Assembly (NCBI GenBank): GCA_028378565.1
Contig: JAONMX010000005.1
Coordinates: 1-57,520, forward strand
Origin: Bacteriovoracaceae bacterium
GTDB lineage: Bacteria; Bdellovibrionota; Bacteriovoracia; Bacteriovoracales; Bacteriovoracaceae
Direction: 5' to 3'
Length of the DNA: 57,520 nt
Part shown: positions 2,815 through 28,408 of the stretch, in pieces
Layout of the letters: each line of letters opens with the position of its first letter
Numbering within the stretch: the stretch's first letter is position 1
Position numbers and translations under genes: made by a program
The notes under the pieces: generated by a model
What the model saw: the letters and a program-made list of their open reading frames with translations, nothing else
Database searches by the model: none
Told to the model about the DNA's origin: nothing

Positions 2815-2892
2815 GGGAAGAATTATAAAGGGGGAGGAAAAATTATTATTGAAATTATTGTTGGTATAAGTCTTTCTGTTGGAATTATATTC

Positions 2893-3258
2893 TTGGCATC
2901 CAAATTGAAATTAGAGGAAGATAAAAGTTTTTATCCTGTTCTTCTTATCGTTATAGCAACATATTACATTCTTTTTGGTGTAATGAGCAGGTCAACCTCT
3001 ACTGTTTTGATAGAATCGTCTATCGCACTTGTTTTTATTGTTTTGGGGTTATTGGGCATTTATAGGCCATTGATCACGGCCATGGGAATGATTGGACATG
3101 GAGTTTTTGACCTTCTTCATGACTTGGCTCTTAAAAATCCAAGTGTACCACATTGGTGGCCTGTATTCTGTGCTGTTGTCGATTTAGTATTAGGACTTTG
3201 GATTTTTTATAGTTTAAAGAATAGAGTGCTTGTTCCAATTAAAAAAGAAAGGGATTAG
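2893..3258 (+). CDS. Membrane protein, four helices, start codon uncertain
   Basis: 121 residues from the TTG at 2893, with several hydrophobic helices and a loop containing HGVFDLLHDLALKNPSVPHWWPVFC. No good ribosome-binding site precedes this TTG. A strong GGGGGAGG at about 2830-2837 instead points to a start around 2842-2848, where the only candidates are ATT codons. From there the frame adds a hydrophobic stretch that completes the first membrane helix. The gene stops directly before the ATG of the next membrane protein. The family was not recognised. Confidence 0.55.
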   Translation: MASKLKLEEDKSFYPVLLIVIATYYILFGVMSRSTSTVLIESSIALVFIVLGLLGIYRPLITAMGMIGHGVFDLLHDLALKNPSVPHWWPVFCAVVDLVLGLWIFYSLKNRVLVPIKKERD

Positions 3259-11709: not shown

Positions 11710-11830
11710 ATTTTTACCCTTATTTTTGTTAAGGCCGATGGCCTACACCCTTTTCGGCCGGAATGGGAAGGGCCAAATTTCTATTTTTAAATTTCAAATA
11801 GTTAATTGGGATATGTCACCCCAACGTAAC

Positions 11831-11890
11831 CCCTCTTTCCCTAAAGGGTGAGAGGGATTACTAAAAATAAATTTGGGCAATAACGCCCAA
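11831..11890 (+). other. Two hairpins upstream of the FtsK-like gene
   Basis: CCCTCT (11831-11836) pairs with AGAGGG (11851-11856), with an inner CCCT/AGGG. TTGGGC (11873-11878) pairs with GCCCAA (11885-11890) across a six-base loop and is followed by a short T run. They lie between the divergent small gene and the FtsK ribosome-binding site (AAGGAG). They could form a terminator/attenuator or a nicking-site structure. No clear choice is possible from sequence. Confidence 0.4.
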
Positions 11891-11912: not shown

Positions 11913-13445
11913 ATGAGTGATTCAAAATCACCACAACCGTCAAATTTTGACAAAGAAATGGCAAAGGTTTTCGACCAAGCAGCTATCGCTATTGGGATTA
12001 TCTGTGCCTTTAATTTTAAAATCCTGTGCCAAGGATTAAAGGAGGTTGGAACTTTAGGCCGATTTTTAAAATGGCTCATCCCGATTACGCTGATTTCGTA
12101 CATGGTTGTACGCTATCAGTGGCAGCTCGACTTTCTGTATTGGCTCTCACCAAAGTTTTTCCACAATGAAAGACTTGAGGCCATTTTTTATCTGGGAACG
12201 CTTAAAAATGTTTCTGGGGTGGCGGGCATCTCTACCCTAGTCTGGCTATGGATTTGTGGAATTATCCCCACCATTCGCCTGAGAGGTTATCAAAATGCCC
12301 TTGATTGTCTCGGGCTAAAAAACGCCAAGGATTTTGCCCCCAAAGTTGTCGATGCCACTAGGCTTGATACTTACAGGGTGTCGTTAAAAGTTTTGGCACC
12401 AGGTATTGGCGTGGAGAAAATCAAAGCAAGGCGTGATGAGCTTCAATCTTCTTTTGAAAAGGATATTGAAGAAATCAATCGCTTTAAAAATCCCAAGTAT
12501 GTGGAGATTATTCTCTCGACTAAATTTTTACCGGATTTTGTCGATTTTTCCCAAGCTTTGGAAAATTTAACAGAAAGTGGATCTTTCATTGTTGGAGAAT
12601 CAAAAAAAGAATTTGTCACCTGTGAGATCGCCAAGCTCCCTCACATGATGATTGCTGGTACAACTGGTGGAGGAAAGTCGCAATTTTTTAAGCAGCTTTT
12701 GACAGGGCTTTTAAAATCAACTGACCACCTGCAAATGCACCTGATTGACATGAAAGGCGGGCTTGAGTTTAGAGATTTTGCGACACTTCCCAATGTCAAA
12801 GTGGCCAAGACAATTGAGGCTTCTGTTTCAACTCTTAGAAAAGTTAAAAAAGAAATGGACGCTCGCTTTGATTACCTTGAAGAAAAAGGAGTGCAACAGA
12901 TTGAACCCGAAAGGCATCCATTTGACCGCATTGTGATCGGCGTTGATGAGGCCTCGGTCTTGTACGCTCAAGCACGAAGAGATGATGAGGACTATGATCT
13001 TATCTGTGAAGCCAGAAATCTCACGGAGAAGATCGCTAAACTTGGAAGGGCCGCTGCCATTAATTTGGTACTTGCTACCCAGAAAGTCTCAAAAGAGAGC
13101 ATTGACACTAGGATTCAAGAGAATATCACCGGAAGAATGTGTTTCAAAACTGGAACTCCAGAAGGGAGCGTGCGAGTGCTTGGAAATGCCAAGGCCTCTC
13201 ATCTTCCGGCAACTCCAGGGCGTGGGGTTTGGCAATTTGGTAATGAGGAATGTGAAGTTCAGGCCCCTTACTTGAGCACAAATGCCATGAAAGAAGTGCT
13301 TCAAGAGGTGAAAGAAGAGTACCAAACGGGAGCCAAGACAGTGAAGCAAAAGAATAAAGAAGTTGATACTCCTATGACAACCTCTGCACCAGTCACAACT
13401 AAACCTTTAACCAAGGAGATGCTATTGAATGATACTCAAAGCTAG
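11913..13445 (+). CDS. FtsK/SpoIIIE-family DNA-transfer ATPase
   Basis: 510 residues. Hydrophobic segments at about 50-68 and 100-120 anchor it in the membrane. Walker A GTTGGGKS lies at 249-256 and Walker B VIGVDEAS near 341-348, followed by an RAAAINLVLATQK stretch that fits the FtsK/HerA motor core. The length suits the coupling ATPases of integrative conjugative elements rather than cell-division FtsK (no gamma domain). The stop overlaps the ATG of the replication-relaxation gene, so the two work together in DNA processing and transfer. Confidence 0.8.
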   Translation: MSDSKSPQPSNFDKEMAKVFDQAAIAIGIICAFNFKILCQGLKEVGTLGRFLKWLIPITLISYMVVRYQWQLDFLYWLSPKFFHNERLEAIFYLGTLKNVSGVAGISTLVWLWICGIIPTIRLRGYQNALDCLGLKNAKDFAPKVVDATRLDTYRVSLKVLAPGIGVEKIKARRDELQSSFEKDIEEINRFKNPKYVEIILSTKFLPDFVDFSQALENLTESGSFIVGESKKEFVTCEIAKLPHMMIAGTTGGGKSQFFKQLLTGLLKSTDHLQMHLIDMKGGLEFRDFATLPNVKVAKTIEASVSTLRKVKKEMDARFDYLEEKGVQQIEPERHPFDRIVIGVDEASVLYAQARRDDEDYDLICEARNLTEKIAKLGRAAAINLVLATQKVSKESIDTRIQENITGRMCFKTGTPEGSVRVLGNAKASHLPATPGRGVWQFGNEECEVQAPYLSTNAMKEVLQEVKEEYQTGAKTVKQKNKEVDTPMTTSAPVTTKPLTKEMLLNDTQS

Positions 13446-14857: not shown

Positions 14858-14930
14858 GAGATTTTTAAATGACAATACTGGCGGTCAGTAGGAAGCACCA
14901 CGGCCGCCTCCTTTTTTGGAGGCGACTATG
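14855..14930 (+). promoter_or_regulatory. Hairpin hiding the ribosome-binding site of the Mom-like gene
   Basis: CGCCTCC (14905-14911) and GGAGGCG (14918-14924) form a perfect 7-bp stem around six T. The 3' arm contains the GGAGG Shine-Dalgarno of the ATG at 14928. A short frame from ATG 14869, with its own TAGGAG, runs through the hairpin and ends at 15018. Ribosomes on that leader could open the stem. Translational coupling or attenuation is inferred. Confidence 0.55.
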
Positions 14931-15833
14931 CTTACACCTACTACTGATAGGGAAACCTATACCAAAAATCATTGCTGGCAATATGAGATTAGAAAACAAA
15001 ATCTTGCCAGTGATCTGAATGAATCAAAACTTACTTATGAAAAAGCAAGTTCTCTTAAAATATCAGACTTTTCTTTTTCGTATGTCCCGAAAGTTGATAA
15101 AGAAACGTGCCAAAAGATAAAGGAATTTATCACAAAGCACGAATGGCTGGGCACGATGCCCCACCGTCCCACTCATCGTTTTATCGCAACTTACAAAGAT
15201 GAGCTGGCGGGCGTAGTGGTCATGAGTACACCCAATGCCTTTTCACTTCTTCTTGGGAAAGAGAATCGAGATAAAGAAAAGCTGATCTCACGGGGAGCTT
15301 GCATTTCTTGGAGTCCCAAAAATCTGGCATCTGCTCTTATCATGTATTCGATAAGATGGATGGTAGCAAATACCGAGTTTCGCTATTTCACAGCGTACAG
15401 TGATACCGAGGCAAAAGAGCTAGGCACTATTTATCAGGCCTGCAACTTCACCTACCTTGGTAAAAATAGCGGAGCGCGTGCCAAATACTTTGATCCCAAA
15501 GAACCTGACAAGGGCTGGTTTACGGATCGGGTATTTCGGCACATTCGCTATTACAAACGCTATGCCAACGAACTTAGTATTTCTTGGCAAAATGATTGGA
15601 ACACTCGTCACTCAATGCTCTGGAAAAATGTCCCGCCACTAATTGAAGTCGAGCTTAAGAGAATGGCAAGAGTTCATCAATCCAGATGCTACAAGAAGAA
15701 GATTTCAAGAAAGCATAAGTATGTCTACGTCTTGGGCAGAGATAAAAGGGAGACAAAAAAACTGCGCTCCCTTTTATTTTCCTTAAACCCAAAGCTTTTA
15801 AATCTAACCTATCCAAAACAACGAGGTACCTAA
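14928..15833 (+). CDS. GNAT-like protein resembling Mom DNA-modification enzymes
   Basis: 301 residues from ATG 14928 (GGAGG five bases upstream). The centre has GTMPHRPTHRFIATYKDELAG, then SRGACISWSPKNLASALIMYSIRW and a YFTAYSDTEAKELGTIYQACNF segment. This is the acetyltransferase-like fold seen in phage Mom and related proteins that modify adenine to evade restriction. The basic tail (KKKISRKHKYVYVLGRDKR) fits nucleic-acid binding. The gene precedes excisionase and integrase in one operon. Anti-restriction modification is a reasonable guess only. Confidence 0.5.
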   Translation: MLTPTTDRETYTKNHCWQYEIRKQNLASDLNESKLTYEKASSLKISDFSFSYVPKVDKETCQKIKEFITKHEWLGTMPHRPTHRFIATYKDELAGVVVMSTPNAFSLLLGKENRDKEKLISRGACISWSPKNLASALIMYSIRWMVANTEFRYFTAYSDTEAKELGTIYQACNFTYLGKNSGARAKYFDPKEPDKGWFTDRVFRHIRYYKRYANELSISWQNDWNTRHSMLWKNVPPLIEVELKRMARVHQSRCYKKKISRKHKYVYVLGRDKRETKKLRSLLFSLNPKLLNLTYPKQRGT

Positions 15834-24251: not shown

Positions 24252-24884
24252 CTATGGTTTTGGGACACCCAATTTTTTAAGGATTCGTTGAATCGTAGTT
24301 CTGGAAACCTTGCCGTCCAGCTTTCTTTCAATCGCCCTGATTGATAACCCTTTCTTTCTAAGTGAAACAATTCTATCTTTCAGCTTATCATCAGTTGCTG
24401 GTGGCCTGCCACAACGCCATTCAATCCCAAGTTCTTGGGCCGATAACTTCTTGGCCGCTAATGCTGTTCTAATTCTTTCCCTGGTCAATTCCCTTTCTAG
24501 TTCAGCAATAGCACCCAAAATTGTTAATGTGGCCTGGCCCATTGGTGTAGTGAAGTCTAGACTTTCCCTTAATGATATAAGCGATACTCCATACCCTGCT
24601 AGTTCGTGGATAAGGTTTAGAAGGTGTCGAGTGTTTCTTCCTATCCTATCTATTCCTGTGACAATAAGAACTTTAAACTTACCCTGTCGGGCATGTAGGA
24701 TTAAATCATCAAGTGCTGGTCTTTTTTCTTTAGCACCACTAATGCCCTTATCTACATATTCAAGTTGTAAATCAAAGTTTCTGGCCTTGGCAAATTCCCT
24801 TATTCTGACCAGTTGAAGTTCAGGGTCTTGACCCAATAGTGTAGAAACGCGTGAATATGCAACGGCCTTGACCTTTTTAATCAT
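24252..24884 (-). CDS. Serine recombinase (resolvase/invertase family)
   Basis: 210 residues from ATG 24884. The catalytic N-terminus has AYSRVSTLLGQDPELQ with the active-site Ser, then VDKGISGAKEKRPALDDL, GIDRIGRN and the ELERELTRERI long helix. A resolvase helix-turn-helix ends the protein (IRAIERKLDGKVSRTTIQRIL). Full length for the Tn3-resolvase/DNA-invertase family. It is divergent from a small gene, and the 83-bp gap carries repeats suitable for its recombination site. Confidence 0.9.
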   Translation of the reverse strand: MIKKVKAVAYSRVSTLLGQDPELQLVRIREFAKARNFDLQLEYVDKGISGAKEKRPALDDLILHARQGKFKVLIVTGIDRIGRNTRHLLNLIHELAGYGVSLISLRESLDFTTPMGQATLTILGAIAELERELTRERIRTALAAKKLSAQELGIEWRCGRPPATDDKLKDRIVSLRKKGLSIRAIERKLDGKVSRTTIQRILKKLGVPKP

Positions 24885-24893
24885 GTATTCAAT

Positions 24894-24958
24894 ATAACAC
24901 AAAGCAGTATTTATGTGTAACAATTTATTGTATAACAATAATTCTTACAATGTGTTAT
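24894..24958. promoter_or_regulatory. Divergent control region with inverted repeats, possible res site
   Basis: ATAACACA (24894-24901) and TGTGTTAT (24951-24958) form an inverted repeat around an AT-rich core that holds further TGTAACAA, TTGTATAACAA and TTACAA words. It lies between the resolvase start and the next gene. Typical uses are a res/crossover site and shared operator for the resolvase. Confidence 0.45.
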
Positions 24959-24967
24959 CTTATACTT

Positions 24968-25186
24968 ATGAAAACTAACAAAAAGAAAAGTCCTTCTGAT
25001 TACCCTATGTTTTCTTTTAGGGTCAGTGAAGACGATAAGGAAATGCTAAACATCCAAATTGAAAAGGCCGTTAAACTTCTTAATAAGAAGCTGGATGAAG
25101 ATGATAGGGCCATTAGAAAGAACGATGTCATTGTAAAAGCACTCAATATTGGTCTTAAAGAAGTAATCAAGAAAAAGAAGTTATAA
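24968..25186 (+). CDS. Small basic protein, ribbon-helix-helix-like
   Basis: 72 residues from ATG 24968. FSFRVSEDDKEMLNIQIEKAVKLLNKK, then RAIRKNDVIVKALNIGLKEVIKKKK, fits a ribbon-helix-helix-type DNA-binding protein similar to mobilisation accessory or partition proteins. It is transcribed away from the serine recombinase. The noncoding structured region follows. Confidence 0.5.
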   Translation: MKTNKKKSPSDYPMFSFRVSEDDKEMLNIQIEKAVKLLNKKLDEDDRAIRKNDVIVKALNIGLKEVIKKKKL

Positions 25187-25359
25187 GCCTGGGGGCCTAT
25201 GACCGACTTTCTATTTCCAGAAACTATTTGTTAATGGGAAGCCATGTCCTAATCTGTTGAAATTCAACGCTAACAAAATTTATTATAACTTTTTTTAGTT
25301 TTCTGTGTTGACCTTCAGATTATAAAAAATTATTTCTAAAGTATCTAAGAAGTGGCGTC

Positions 25360-25498
25360 CACCCCAAATCCTATTGGGTGTCGGTCAGGATGGTGATGGT
25401 CGTAGGATGAAAGATTCCTACATATCAATAACATTTGCTTTGAACCACTGAAAGCAAAGTCAAAATTTTTATTATTAAATTTTGGGATTCATCACCAT
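25360..25498 (+). ncRNA. Candidate structured RNA or DNA: hairpin plus closed three-hairpin junction
   Basis: A hairpin CACCC/GGGTG (25360-25380) is followed by a perfect 9-bp stem ATGGTGATG (25390-25398) with CATCACCAT (25490-25498). It encloses three perfect hairpins: GTAGGA/TCCTAC (25402-25421), TTTGCTTT/AAAGCAAA (25434-25458) and CAAAATTT/AAATTTTG (25461-25484). The stretch is noncoding in all frames. It lies 80 bases before the Xre gene. It could be an RNA leader, an independent RNA or an origin; no known class was recognised. Confidence 0.5.
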
Positions 25499-25542
25499 TT
25501 AGGCAATTAATTGTTTTTTCCTATTTTTTCATTTGTATGAAT

Positions 25543-25581
25543 CCCCACAGATTCCAGTTATCTGGAAAGGGGAAAACTATG
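25543..25581 (+). promoter_or_regulatory. Hairpin covering the ribosome-binding site of the Xre gene
   Basis: CCCC (25543-25546) with GGGG (25569-25572) and TTCCAG (25552-25557) with CTGGAA (25562-25567) form a stem with a four-base loop. The 3' arm includes the AAGGGG that serves the ATG at 25579. An alternative in-frame ATG at 25537 precedes the hairpin, so translation from there would melt it. Element 1 has the same arrangement at 14905-14930. Confidence 0.55.
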
Positions 25582-25815
25582 TCCAATTTTTTCGATTTTA
25601 AACGTAAACGACCAAAGAAGAAGGTTCATCGGTTCAAGAAGCTAAGACTTACTTTTGGTATCACCCAAGCAGAACTAGCTAATTATCTAAACTGTTCCCA
25701 GGCCTTTGTTTCAAATGTTGAAAAACGTCACAAGAAAGCACCAAAGGAAATGCTTAGAAAGTTTAAGAAACTTAGAAGCGAACTTATGGAAGAAATGAAT
25801 GGGGGTTCAAAATGA
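25579..25815 (+). CDS. Small Xre-family DNA-binding protein
   Basis: 78 residues, strongly basic N-terminus (FKRKRPKKKVHRFKKLR), then the helix-turn-helix TFGITQAELANYLNCSQAFVSNVEK. The start at 25579 is chosen for its AAGGGG; an in-frame ATG at 25537 would add 14 residues. Its end overlaps the next gene. Probably the switch protein of the excisionase-integrase operon. Confidence 0.75.
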   Translation: MSNFFDFKRKRPKKKVHRFKKLRLTFGITQAELANYLNCSQAFVSNVEKRHKKAPKEMLRKFKKLRSELMEEMNGGSK

Positions 25816-26018
25816 ACCTGGAACAAATACCAAGTAAGTTTCAAAATTTATTGAAAAAGACTTTTAGTGGTGATGTTTCACCAAGGAAGGCCATTAAAGC
25901 AAAATGCTATGACTGTGTATGTTTTGAAAATGTTAAGGAACAAATATCAAACTGTTCAATTACTGCTTGTCCACTCTACCAATATAGACCCTACAAGGAT
26001 GTTAAAAATGAAAACTAG
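25812..26018 (+). CDS. Cys-rich small protein of integrative elements
   Basis: 68 residues. PRKAIKAKCYDCVCFENVKEQISNCSITACPLYQYRPY has the C-x2-C...C-x4-C-P-L-Y pattern of a small zinc-binding protein often found in phage and integrative-element operons. The ATG overlaps the previous stop (ATGA), and the last codons overlap the excisionase gene. Confidence 0.7.
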   Translation: MNLEQIPSKFQNLLKKTFSGDVSPRKAIKAKCYDCVCFENVKEQISNCSITACPLYQYRPYKDVKNEN

Positions 26019-26331
26019 CAACGTAATTCAGTTTCCAGAAATAAAACATAACCAATCCGTCCCACAAACTTGTGCTGATGATAGTGACGGCCTTAAACAA
26101 GGGCAAGAATTTGTTTCAGTCAAAGAGATTGGAAAGTTATTCGGAATTTCAAGGTCAATGATTTATGAACTAATCCACCATGAACCGAACTTTCCAGCTG
26201 TCAATGTAGGAAGGAAGAAAAAATATGTAATTCATTTAGATGGATTTTGTGAATGGTATAAAAACAGGCAACAAAGGCAAGAAGCTGATGTGCCCAATGG
26301 TTTTGAACTAATAAGAAGGTATAAAAAATGA
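26008..26331 (+). CDS. Excisionase-like helix-turn-helix protein, element 2
   Basis: 107 residues from ATG 26008 (AAGGA upstream, overlapping the previous stop). The core FVSVKEIGKLFGISRSMIYELIH and FPAVNVGRKKKYVIHLDGFCEWY matches the excisionase of element 1 almost position by position. The stop overlaps the integrase ATG, so excision and integration proteins are co-translated. Confidence 0.7.
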   Translation: MKTSNVIQFPEIKHNQSVPQTCADDSDGLKQGQEFVSVKEIGKLFGISRSMIYELIHHEPNFPAVNVGRKKKYVIHLDGFCEWYKNRQQRQEADVPNGFELIRRYKK

Positions 26332-27338
26332 ACAATCAAGTAGCAATTCACAAACTCCAAGGTAACTTCTGGCAAACATCAGCAATTTATCCAGGCAGTC
26401 AAAAAAGGGTAAGGGCAAGATTTTCAAGTTACAAAGACGTTAAGAAAAATGAAAAGTATCTTAAAACACTACTGGCCGATGGTAAAAACCCAAACGCCAA
26501 CAGAAAGATTGGCGACCTATTAGAATTACATTTACAGAAATGCCCTGAAACAAAGGTCATAGAAAGAAAAAATGTGTTTATCATGTTCTGTGAACGGTTT
26601 TGTAAAACAAAAATCTGTGACCTAAATGTTTACGACCTAAAAAAGTGGTTTCGGGATATTCAAAAGGCTAGGGACTATTCGGACTTAACACTCAACCATA
26701 TCAAAGGAAATTTGAACCATTTCTTTTATTACCTAGTCGATGAAGGGATAATTATGGAATCACCACTTTCCCAGATACGTTTCAATCGAAACCCACCACC
26801 GAAAAAGCCAAGGGTATATCTGACAGTAAATGAAATCAAAGAACTTCTGGATAATGCCAAAGAGTATAGTCCACTATTTCTTTATCCATTTTTATACTGT
26901 CTTGCCCATACAGGTGCTAGACGAAGTGAAGTTGTTGGCCTTCGCTGGAAAGATGTTGATTTTCCCAGGGGCGTTTTAACTTTTATTGAAACTAAGAATG
27001 GAACTAACAGAACCATCAAGATGTCACCACAACTGACAAAGCTATTGCAGGGGCAACCTAGGACTTCCAGCTATGTTTTTACTAACCCAAAGGGCGAACA
27101 AGTTGGCCGAAGCCAGTTAAACCGACATATTTATGCTTTTAAGGCCCATTATCCTTTTCATAAGGATTGGCAATGCCACGCTTTCAGACATTCATTTGCC
27201 TACAATAACTTAAAGGGTGGAATGAATATGTATGAATTGCAGGCCTTACTGGGCCACAAGTCGATTCAACTGACAATTGACCTTTATGGCCAACTTCTTA
27301 GTGAAGACGTTGAAAAGCCAAGTCCCTACAACTTTTAA
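26328..27338 (+). CDS. Tyrosine recombinase (integrase), element 2
   Basis: 336 residues, clear paralogue of the protein at 16184-17224. Catalytic set complete: R198 in TGARRSE, H284-x-x-R287 in HAFRHSF, H310 in LGH, Y320. It overlaps the excisionase gene by four bases and ends with a hairpin terminator. It should be active on the second element's attachment sites, which I could not locate. Confidence 0.9.
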   Translation: MNNQVAIHKLQGNFWQTSAIYPGSQKRVRARFSSYKDVKKNEKYLKTLLADGKNPNANRKIGDLLELHLQKCPETKVIERKNVFIMFCERFCKTKICDLNVYDLKKWFRDIQKARDYSDLTLNHIKGNLNHFFYYLVDEGIIMESPLSQIRFNRNPPPKKPRVYLTVNEIKELLDNAKEYSPLFLYPFLYCLAHTGARRSEVVGLRWKDVDFPRGVLTFIETKNGTNRTIKMSPQLTKLLQGQPRTSSYVFTNPKGEQVGRSQLNRHIYAFKAHYPFHKDWQCHAFRHSFAYNNLKGGMNMYELQALLGHKSIQLTIDLYGQLLSEDVEKPSPYNF

Positions 27339-27344
27339 CCTAGC

Positions 27345-27368
27345 AAGGGCCATTTAATAATGGCCCTT
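27345..27368 (+). terminator. Terminator after integrase 2
   Basis: AAGGGCCATT (27345-27354) and AATGGCCCTT (27359-27368) form a perfect 10-bp stem with a four-base loop directly after the integrase stop. Only three T follow. Same position as the hairpin after integrase 1. Confidence 0.65.
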
Positions 27369-27383
27369 TCATACATTGGATTA

Positions 27384-27845
27384 ATGATGATAGACGTAAG
27401 AACACCTGACGATGATGAAATTCATTTTATGAAATGCCATTTCACTGGGATTGATAAACTTATTAACGATGTTATATCTAAGAAAATATCTTCTAGGGAA
27501 GCATTACTTCTTATTTGGATGTCAAGTTATGCCTGGAAGGACCAAAAGAAAAAAAGAAATCGCTTCATGTTATCTACCAGAAGAATTGCAAAACTATGGG
27601 GTGTAACAAAGGTTACGATGGAAAGGTATTTGAAAAGTTTAAAACTTGCAGGACATCTTAAACCTATTTATAGAATTGAAGAAGATGGGCAAGTCAAAAC
27701 ATTTACTAAACAAGCAAATGCCTGGAACCATAGAAAATTAAATGGTGGTTCCCAGAAACATTCTTATCATAAAATACTCAATGAATATTTTTCAGTTGAA
27801 ACAGGTAAGAATGGTCAAAACTACAAAACAACAGAAGACGATTAA
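27384..27845 (+). CDS. Winged-helix protein, possible replication or regulatory factor
   Basis: About 153 residues. SSREALLLIWMSSYAWKDQ is followed by a helix-turn-helix STRRIAKLWGVTKVTMERYLKSL and a wing GHLKPIYRIEEDGQ, a layout found in replication initiators and plasmid regulators. I put the start at the ATG at 27384 because the in-frame ATG at 27360 lies inside the terminator stem, though that start cannot be excluded. A set of three iteron-like repeats begins 24 bases after the stop, which favours a replication or partition role. Confidence 0.5.
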   Translation: MMIDVRTPDDDEIHFMKCHFTGIDKLINDVISKKISSREALLLIWMSSYAWKDQKKKRNRFMLSTRRIAKLWGVTKVTMERYLKSLKLAGHLKPIYRIEEDGQVKTFTKQANAWNHRKLNGGSQKHSYHKILNEYFSVETGKNGQNYKTTEDD

Positions 27846-27868
27846 ACCTAATTCAGCTTTATCTTACA

Positions 27869-27931
27869 AACAGGTGCAGCTGTTATCATTCAACAGGTAG
27901 TAGCTGTATATATAAAACAGTTATAGCTGTT
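27869..27931. repeat. Three iteron-like repeats AACAG-N6/7-CTGTT
   Basis: Copies at 27869-27884, 27892-27908 and 27916-27931, spaced 23 and 24 bases apart. Each is itself a dyad (AACAG then CTGTT or CTGTA). Regular spacing of about two helical turns behind a winged-helix gene is what an initiator or repressor array looks like. Confidence 0.6.
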
Positions 27932-28408
27932 TGTTTTATGCCGATATTAGAATAAGAAGAAGGTTAAGTAGAAGAATATGAAAAAGAAAAAGTATAATAC
28001 TGACTTCCGTCAGATTGCTTTTTTTATTTTTTGATTTCCAGTTCTGGAAGAAAAACTAATTTAATATCAAAGGCCACCCCAACACTGACTACCAAATTAA
28101 TTCTACGTCTTCCCAGAAGCATTTAATCGCCCCAAATCAGTCTTATCCATATCAACCCATACATTCTTCACCAAAAATTATTAAAGTCACTGACAGGGCC
28201 ATGTGAAGGCCAATAAATTAATACTGTGATTGAAGCTAAGGCCAGTGTTCTTTTTCCATAATCCAAACACTGATTCTTGCAATGGTCGGTTCACCGACTT
28301 CGTGCATGGATTATTTTCGTGTCTGGGTCATAGGCCTTGTTTCAGACCAGATTTTCCACATATTCTGGCAAGATTGTGGCAACGTGCTTGGGTTGTAGAT
28401 GTAAGAAA
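27932..28408. other. Noncoding tract between element 2 and the RHS locus
   Basis: No credible gene. A hairpin CTGAC/GTCAG at 28000-28013 is followed by a T-rich run, a likely terminator. A small GTCGG/CCGAC hairpin lies near 28290. The rest is unremarkable and probably contains the right end of element 2. Confidence 0.4.

Follow-up and report, generated by a model that had tools for sequence, protein, structure and literature searches.

The window, as we call the whole 57,520-nucleotide stretch of DNA analysed here, is one contig of a Bacteriovoracaceae assembly that is 56% complete and comprises 1.96 Mb in 166 contigs. It contains a three-hairpin junction with gene groups on both sides (Table 1). 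On the left, a serine recombinase gene and a gene for a ribbon-helix-helix (RHH)-like protein form a divergent pair. On the right, 80 nt separate the 3' end of the junction from the first start codon of an operon that encodes, in this order, an HTH regulator, a Cys-rich protein, an HTH_17 excisionase and a tyrosine integrase. The operon genes overlap by 4, 11 and 4 nt, from which we take them to be translationally coupled.

For the XRE/HTH_3 regulator no relative was found in the other 128 genomes of the family that were searched. The Cys-rich protein has relatives in genome G368 (54% identity) and on two viral contigs; in G368 its gene adjoins an unrelated HTH gene and has a leader of only about 30 nt. 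The excisionase-like protein scored below the family cut-off of TIGR01764. Relatives of the integrase (36-56%) occur in Bacteriovoracaceae and related MAGs, the genomes that harbor them belonging by title to Bacteriovoracaceae, Halobacteriovoraceae and Oligoflexia. The RHH-like protein was matched, by distant relatives, in 13 of the 134 genomes searched, its own included. The divergent serine recombinase/RHH-like pair recurs within the phylum at loci L051 and L062 of genome G039 and at locus L055 of genome G130.

Table 1. Genes and structural elements at and near the junction, in window coordinates (RBS, ribosome-binding site)
Feature	Position	Strand	Remarks
Mom gene of neighbouring element	14928-15833		own leader hairpin
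Serine recombinase (Resolvase N-terminal domain, invertase-like)	24252-24938	-	Pfam PF00239, E 8e-41; phrog_125 DNA invertase, E 3e-49
Small protein, RHH-like by eye	24959-25186	+	without Pfam match
Fourth hairpin, core CCCAA/TTGGG	25361-25381 (core 25363-25367/25374-25378)	+	5 bp, bulged extension, outside P1
Three-hairpin junction	25389-25499	+	non-coding, perfectly paired
Closing stem P1, ATGGTGATG/CATCACCAT	25390-25398/25490-25498	+	9 bp, perfect
Hairpin P2, GTAGGA/TCCTAC	25402-25407/25416-25421	+	6 bp, perfect, inside P1
Hairpin P3, TTTGCTTT/AAAGCAAA	25434-25441/25451-25458	+	8 bp, perfect, inside P1
Hairpin P4, CAAAATTT/AAATTTTG	25461-25468/25477-25484	+	8 bp, perfect, inside P1
GGGATTCAT, 5' side of competing 9-bp helix	25484-25492	+	shares 3 nt with the 3' strand of P1
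ATGAATCCC, 3' side of competing 9-bp helix	25537-25545	+	overlaps the RBS-pairing CCCC
RBS hairpin, CCCC...TTCCAG-TTAT-CTGGAA.GGGG	25543-25572	+	GGGG 25569-25572 paired in the predicted fold
XRE/HTH_3 regulator, first operon gene	25579-25815	+	Pfam HTH_3, E 6e-6
Cys-rich protein, 68 aa	25812-26018	+	ATGA overlap with regulator gene
Excisionase-like HTH_17 protein	26008-26331	+	phrog_66, E 1.5e-5; start overlaps end of Cys-rich gene
Tyrosine integrase	26328-27338	+	PF00589, E 5e-26; ATGA overlap with excisionase gene

Fold of the junction and comparison with shuffled sequences

The layout in the original prediction, with three hairpins inside a perfect 9-bp stem and a fourth one outside, was found again with the same arms, and the prediction that the stretch has no reading frame agrees with a longest stop-free run of 47 codons in 25187-25578. 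On the + strand, and only there, P1 is extended by two G-U pairs (25389-25499 and 25388-25500). In the partition function the pairs of P1 to P4 have probabilities of about 1, except for the outer G-U pair, for which 0.55 was obtained; the fourth hairpin is weaker (0.7-0.9).

The stretch 25388-25500 folds with a free energy of -35.8 against a mean of -18.5 for shuffled sequences, which corresponds to z -5.5 on the + strand, the - strand reaching z -4.5; none of 1000 dinucleotide shuffles folded as well. Only one place in the 57.5 kb window has three or more perfect hairpins, each of 6 bp or longer, enclosed by a perfect stem of 9 bp or longer; shuffled windows have 0.04 such places on average. 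By these figures, which were computed post hoc, 3% of the shuffled windows contain any such junction, and 0.5% contain one that reaches 22 bp in the enclosed hairpins. Since shuffles so rarely match either the fold energy or the count of perfect junctions, the order of the junction is real, as had been claimed before. When both strands were scanned from end to end in steps of 35 nt, the junction ranked tenth by fold among 3282 scan windows and is therefore unusual, not unique; elsewhere in the contig there are places that are equally or better structured.

Searches for homologues and known RNA classes

A DNA search of 143 relatives gave only short A+T-rich matches, without structure around those inspected, and R1, a covariance model built from the single sequence, found no junction homologue in 125 genomes of the family and 369 of the phylum. 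Weak R1 matches at loci L047 and L048 were rejected: they overlap unrelated protein genes on the opposite strand, and matches of this kind are expected by chance over 125 genomes. The junction is also absent from the eight loci with relatives of the RHH-like protein that were scanned with the model (such relatives occur in 12 other genomes) and from the neighbourhood of 23 integrase relatives, a scan from which the Clostridium locus L085 was left out. Viral contigs searched with the neighbouring proteins, four other proteins and a 17-mer yielded nothing relevant, and plasmid and phage searches revealed no similarity. Because none of these searches gave a homologue, the junction has to be regarded as an orphan sequence.

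That the fold matches no known RNA class, as first noted from the letters, holds against Rfam 15, which has no match in the window at gathering thresholds; a relaxed scan of 25187-25620 gave only chance-level matches with E 2.7 or more. A tRNA- or tmRNA-like cloverleaf was discarded, ARAGORN finding neither tRNA nor tmRNA in the window. So was a MITE, suggested by 25200-25207 and 25380-25387, since an 8-bp match like theirs is expected by chance.

A candidate leader of the recombination operon

Integrative elements must hold excision silent until a trigger. A regulatory RNA is the reading that fits the junction best, because the junction lies 5' of a coupled operon, the fold is better on the + strand, the G-U pairs form only on that strand and the RBS of the first gene is predicted to be paired. 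We tentatively propose, at somewhat less than an even chance, that the junction belongs to the 5' untranslated leader of the xre-cys-xis-int operon, carried by an integrative element in a Bacteriovoracaceae-like bacterium, and acts in cis as RNA to keep the operon low. The fold, its position, the gene overlaps and the competing helices were derived from the sequence by computation.

With the junction closed, the GGGG of the RBS (25569-25572) would pair with CCCC (25543-25546) or with UUUUCC (about 25513-25522), the modelled fractions being 0.73 and 0.25, respectively, and initiation at the first gene would be low. If P1 were opened or unable to form, GGGATTCAT would be free to pair with ATGAATCCC, and the resulting helix would remove CCCC, one of the two partners that sequester the RBS, and partly free the RBS. 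In the model the competing helix goes from 0.00 with P1 to 0.24-0.89 with the 5' strand of P1 blocked, and the unpaired fraction of the RBS is 0.04-0.16 with P1 formed versus 0.25-0.42 with P1 blocked, a modest change that varies with the assumed 5' end of the transcript. The RBS hairpin alone has a z of -2.1. Because the four genes overlap, control at the first start would reach the excisionase and the integrase. We infer that the junction is transcribed, that control runs in this direction and that a trigger opens the junction; a protein, a ligand, a ribosome or temperature are candidates for the opener.

Counting against the leader are the absence of a homologue, and with it of covariation or conservation, and the modest size of the modelled change at the RBS. 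By estimate, chance alone would supply about one competing helix of 9 bp in a stretch of this length; 25500-25595, taken by itself, shows no unusual structure (z -0.9), and promoter-like sites are no commoner than in shuffles (9 found, 9.5 expected). Related Xis-Int operons retain excisionase and integrase but contain neither the HTH regulator nor this leader.

The main rival to the RNA leader is a DNA control region, in which the fold would be a by-product of inverted repeats that serve as operators for the HTH regulator, the serine recombinase or the RHH-like protein. Regulators of this class often control their own expression from sites of this sort, which counts in favour of operators. We consider them somewhat unlikely, and nevertheless a serious alternative, because the four GATTC/GAATC boxes in 25413-25554 form a cluster denser than any other of its kind in the window (rate 0.26 per 150 bases) and because folding with DNA parameters is good and equally strong for the two strands (z -4.5 and -5.5). 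Two of the boxes form GAATC-N6-GATTC directly 5' of the regulator gene. The box motif was, however, picked after looking; no motif is common to the closing stem and the 8-bp arms of P3 and P4, although repeated operators should share one, and a nested junction is more than operators require. Order that arose by chance in an intergenic stretch rich in A+T and has no function is unlikely: it would agree with the lack of conservation in any relative searched, with the rank of the junction behind other windows of the contig that fold equally well or better and with its having been noticed post hoc by a reader, but it is hard to reconcile with the shuffles, both those of the fold energy and those of the perfect junction and its enclosed base pairs.

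A discrete small RNA between the two gene groups would explain why the fold is compact and self-contained; we hold it to be decidedly improbable, since the + strand has no terminator-like site 3' of the junction, promoters are not above expectation and the junction lies directly 5' of the operon. The slimmest chance is left to the element's having its transfer or replication origin, or a recombination site, here. Such sites typically hold hairpin clusters, and recombinase genes flank the junction on both sides, but Pfam and PHROG scans of the neighbours found no relaxase or strong Rep gene beside it, the sole Rep-like signal being a weak one (HTH_36/phrog_428, E 2e-4, 27360-27845). No attachment-site-like direct repeat involves the junction stretch, and similarity to plasmids or phages was not found. 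The original prediction had offered a regulatory RNA or an origin; position, + strand fold and RBS pairing point to the RNA, whereas the origin is left unsupported by the absence of a neighbouring relaxase or strong Rep gene.

Returning to the RNA leader, several known systems invite comparison. As in riboswitches and protein-responsive translational leaders with the layout of a SAM-I type four-way junction, in which P1 closes an aptamer and another strand competes, the closing stem encloses several hairpins immediately upstream of a coding region, and a predicted alternative helix takes up part of the 3' strand of P1 and reaches into the sequestering strand. In contrast to riboswitches, the junction has neither an Rfam match at the gathering threshold nor a credible one in the relaxed scan, is known from one sequence without an identifiable conserved core, and comes without a ligand or a controlled metabolic gene. 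With the mom leader of phage Mu under Com (PMC6483171), the locus shares a small set of mobile-element genes combined with RNA structure where translation starts. The parallel extends to the Cys-rich protein encoded in the junction's own operon, but the junction is not located at a Mom gene; the Mom gene in the neighbouring element has a leader hairpin of its own. Palindromes just 5' of an XRE-type gene are likewise found in the operators of XRE/Cro-type autoregulators of integrative elements, from which the junction differs by being nested and by the unrelated sequences of its arms; an operator role is putative.

If the leader works as proposed, these bacteria would control excision partly through RNA, at the first gene of the recombination operon. 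It is improbable that the junction represents a new class of regulatory RNA in mobile elements of predatory bacteria, a four-way junction that would sense a protein or small molecule and thereby time excisionase and integrase.

The Mom-gene hairpin and other structured places

Nowhere in the window is folding better (z -6.9) than at the Mom gene of the neighbouring element, where a hairpin lies at 14880-14948. This hairpin is shared with L072 (2216-2275) and L065 (2199-2260), two elements in one other genome of the family, and has a conserved box, TCAGTAGGA...ACCACG. The shared hairpin covers the start of the Mom-family gene and a purine-rich, ribosome-binding-site-like stretch. In the three sequences 3 of the 15 pairs show paired changes, not significantly above shuffles (100 of 500), and a model of this hairpin does not match the junction. 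In phage Mu, the zinc finger protein Com binds the mom mRNA and thereby activates its translation (PMC6483171); the shared hairpin recalls this Com/mom control by analogy.

The Mom-family genes with the shared hairpin either precede the HTH_17 excisionase gene of integrative elements or form a fusion with it. A Mom-family domain is encoded 5' of the integrase in related elements at L066, L067, L068, L070, L071, L072 and L081, and at L068, L070, L071, L072 and L081 Mom and HTH_17 are fused in one frame of about 400 aa.

Dense hairpins are also present at 11740-11860 (z -6.4, - strand), directly 5' of the gene for an FtsK/SpoIIIE-type ATPase (11913-13445) in element 1; they are possibly a transfer origin or a leader. 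To the right of the operon, just behind the Rep-like gene, 27854-27931 consists of 3.3 copies of a 24-base tandem repeat with ACAGCTGT-like palindromes and is iteron-like, and the non-coding stretch 28190-28370, flanked by the Rep-like HTH_36 gene and by a DUF3015 gene, folds with z -5.2. In a related element, L074, a long near-perfect hairpin (2890-3130, z -5.8) lies between the DnaG/AAA-type and excisionase genes.
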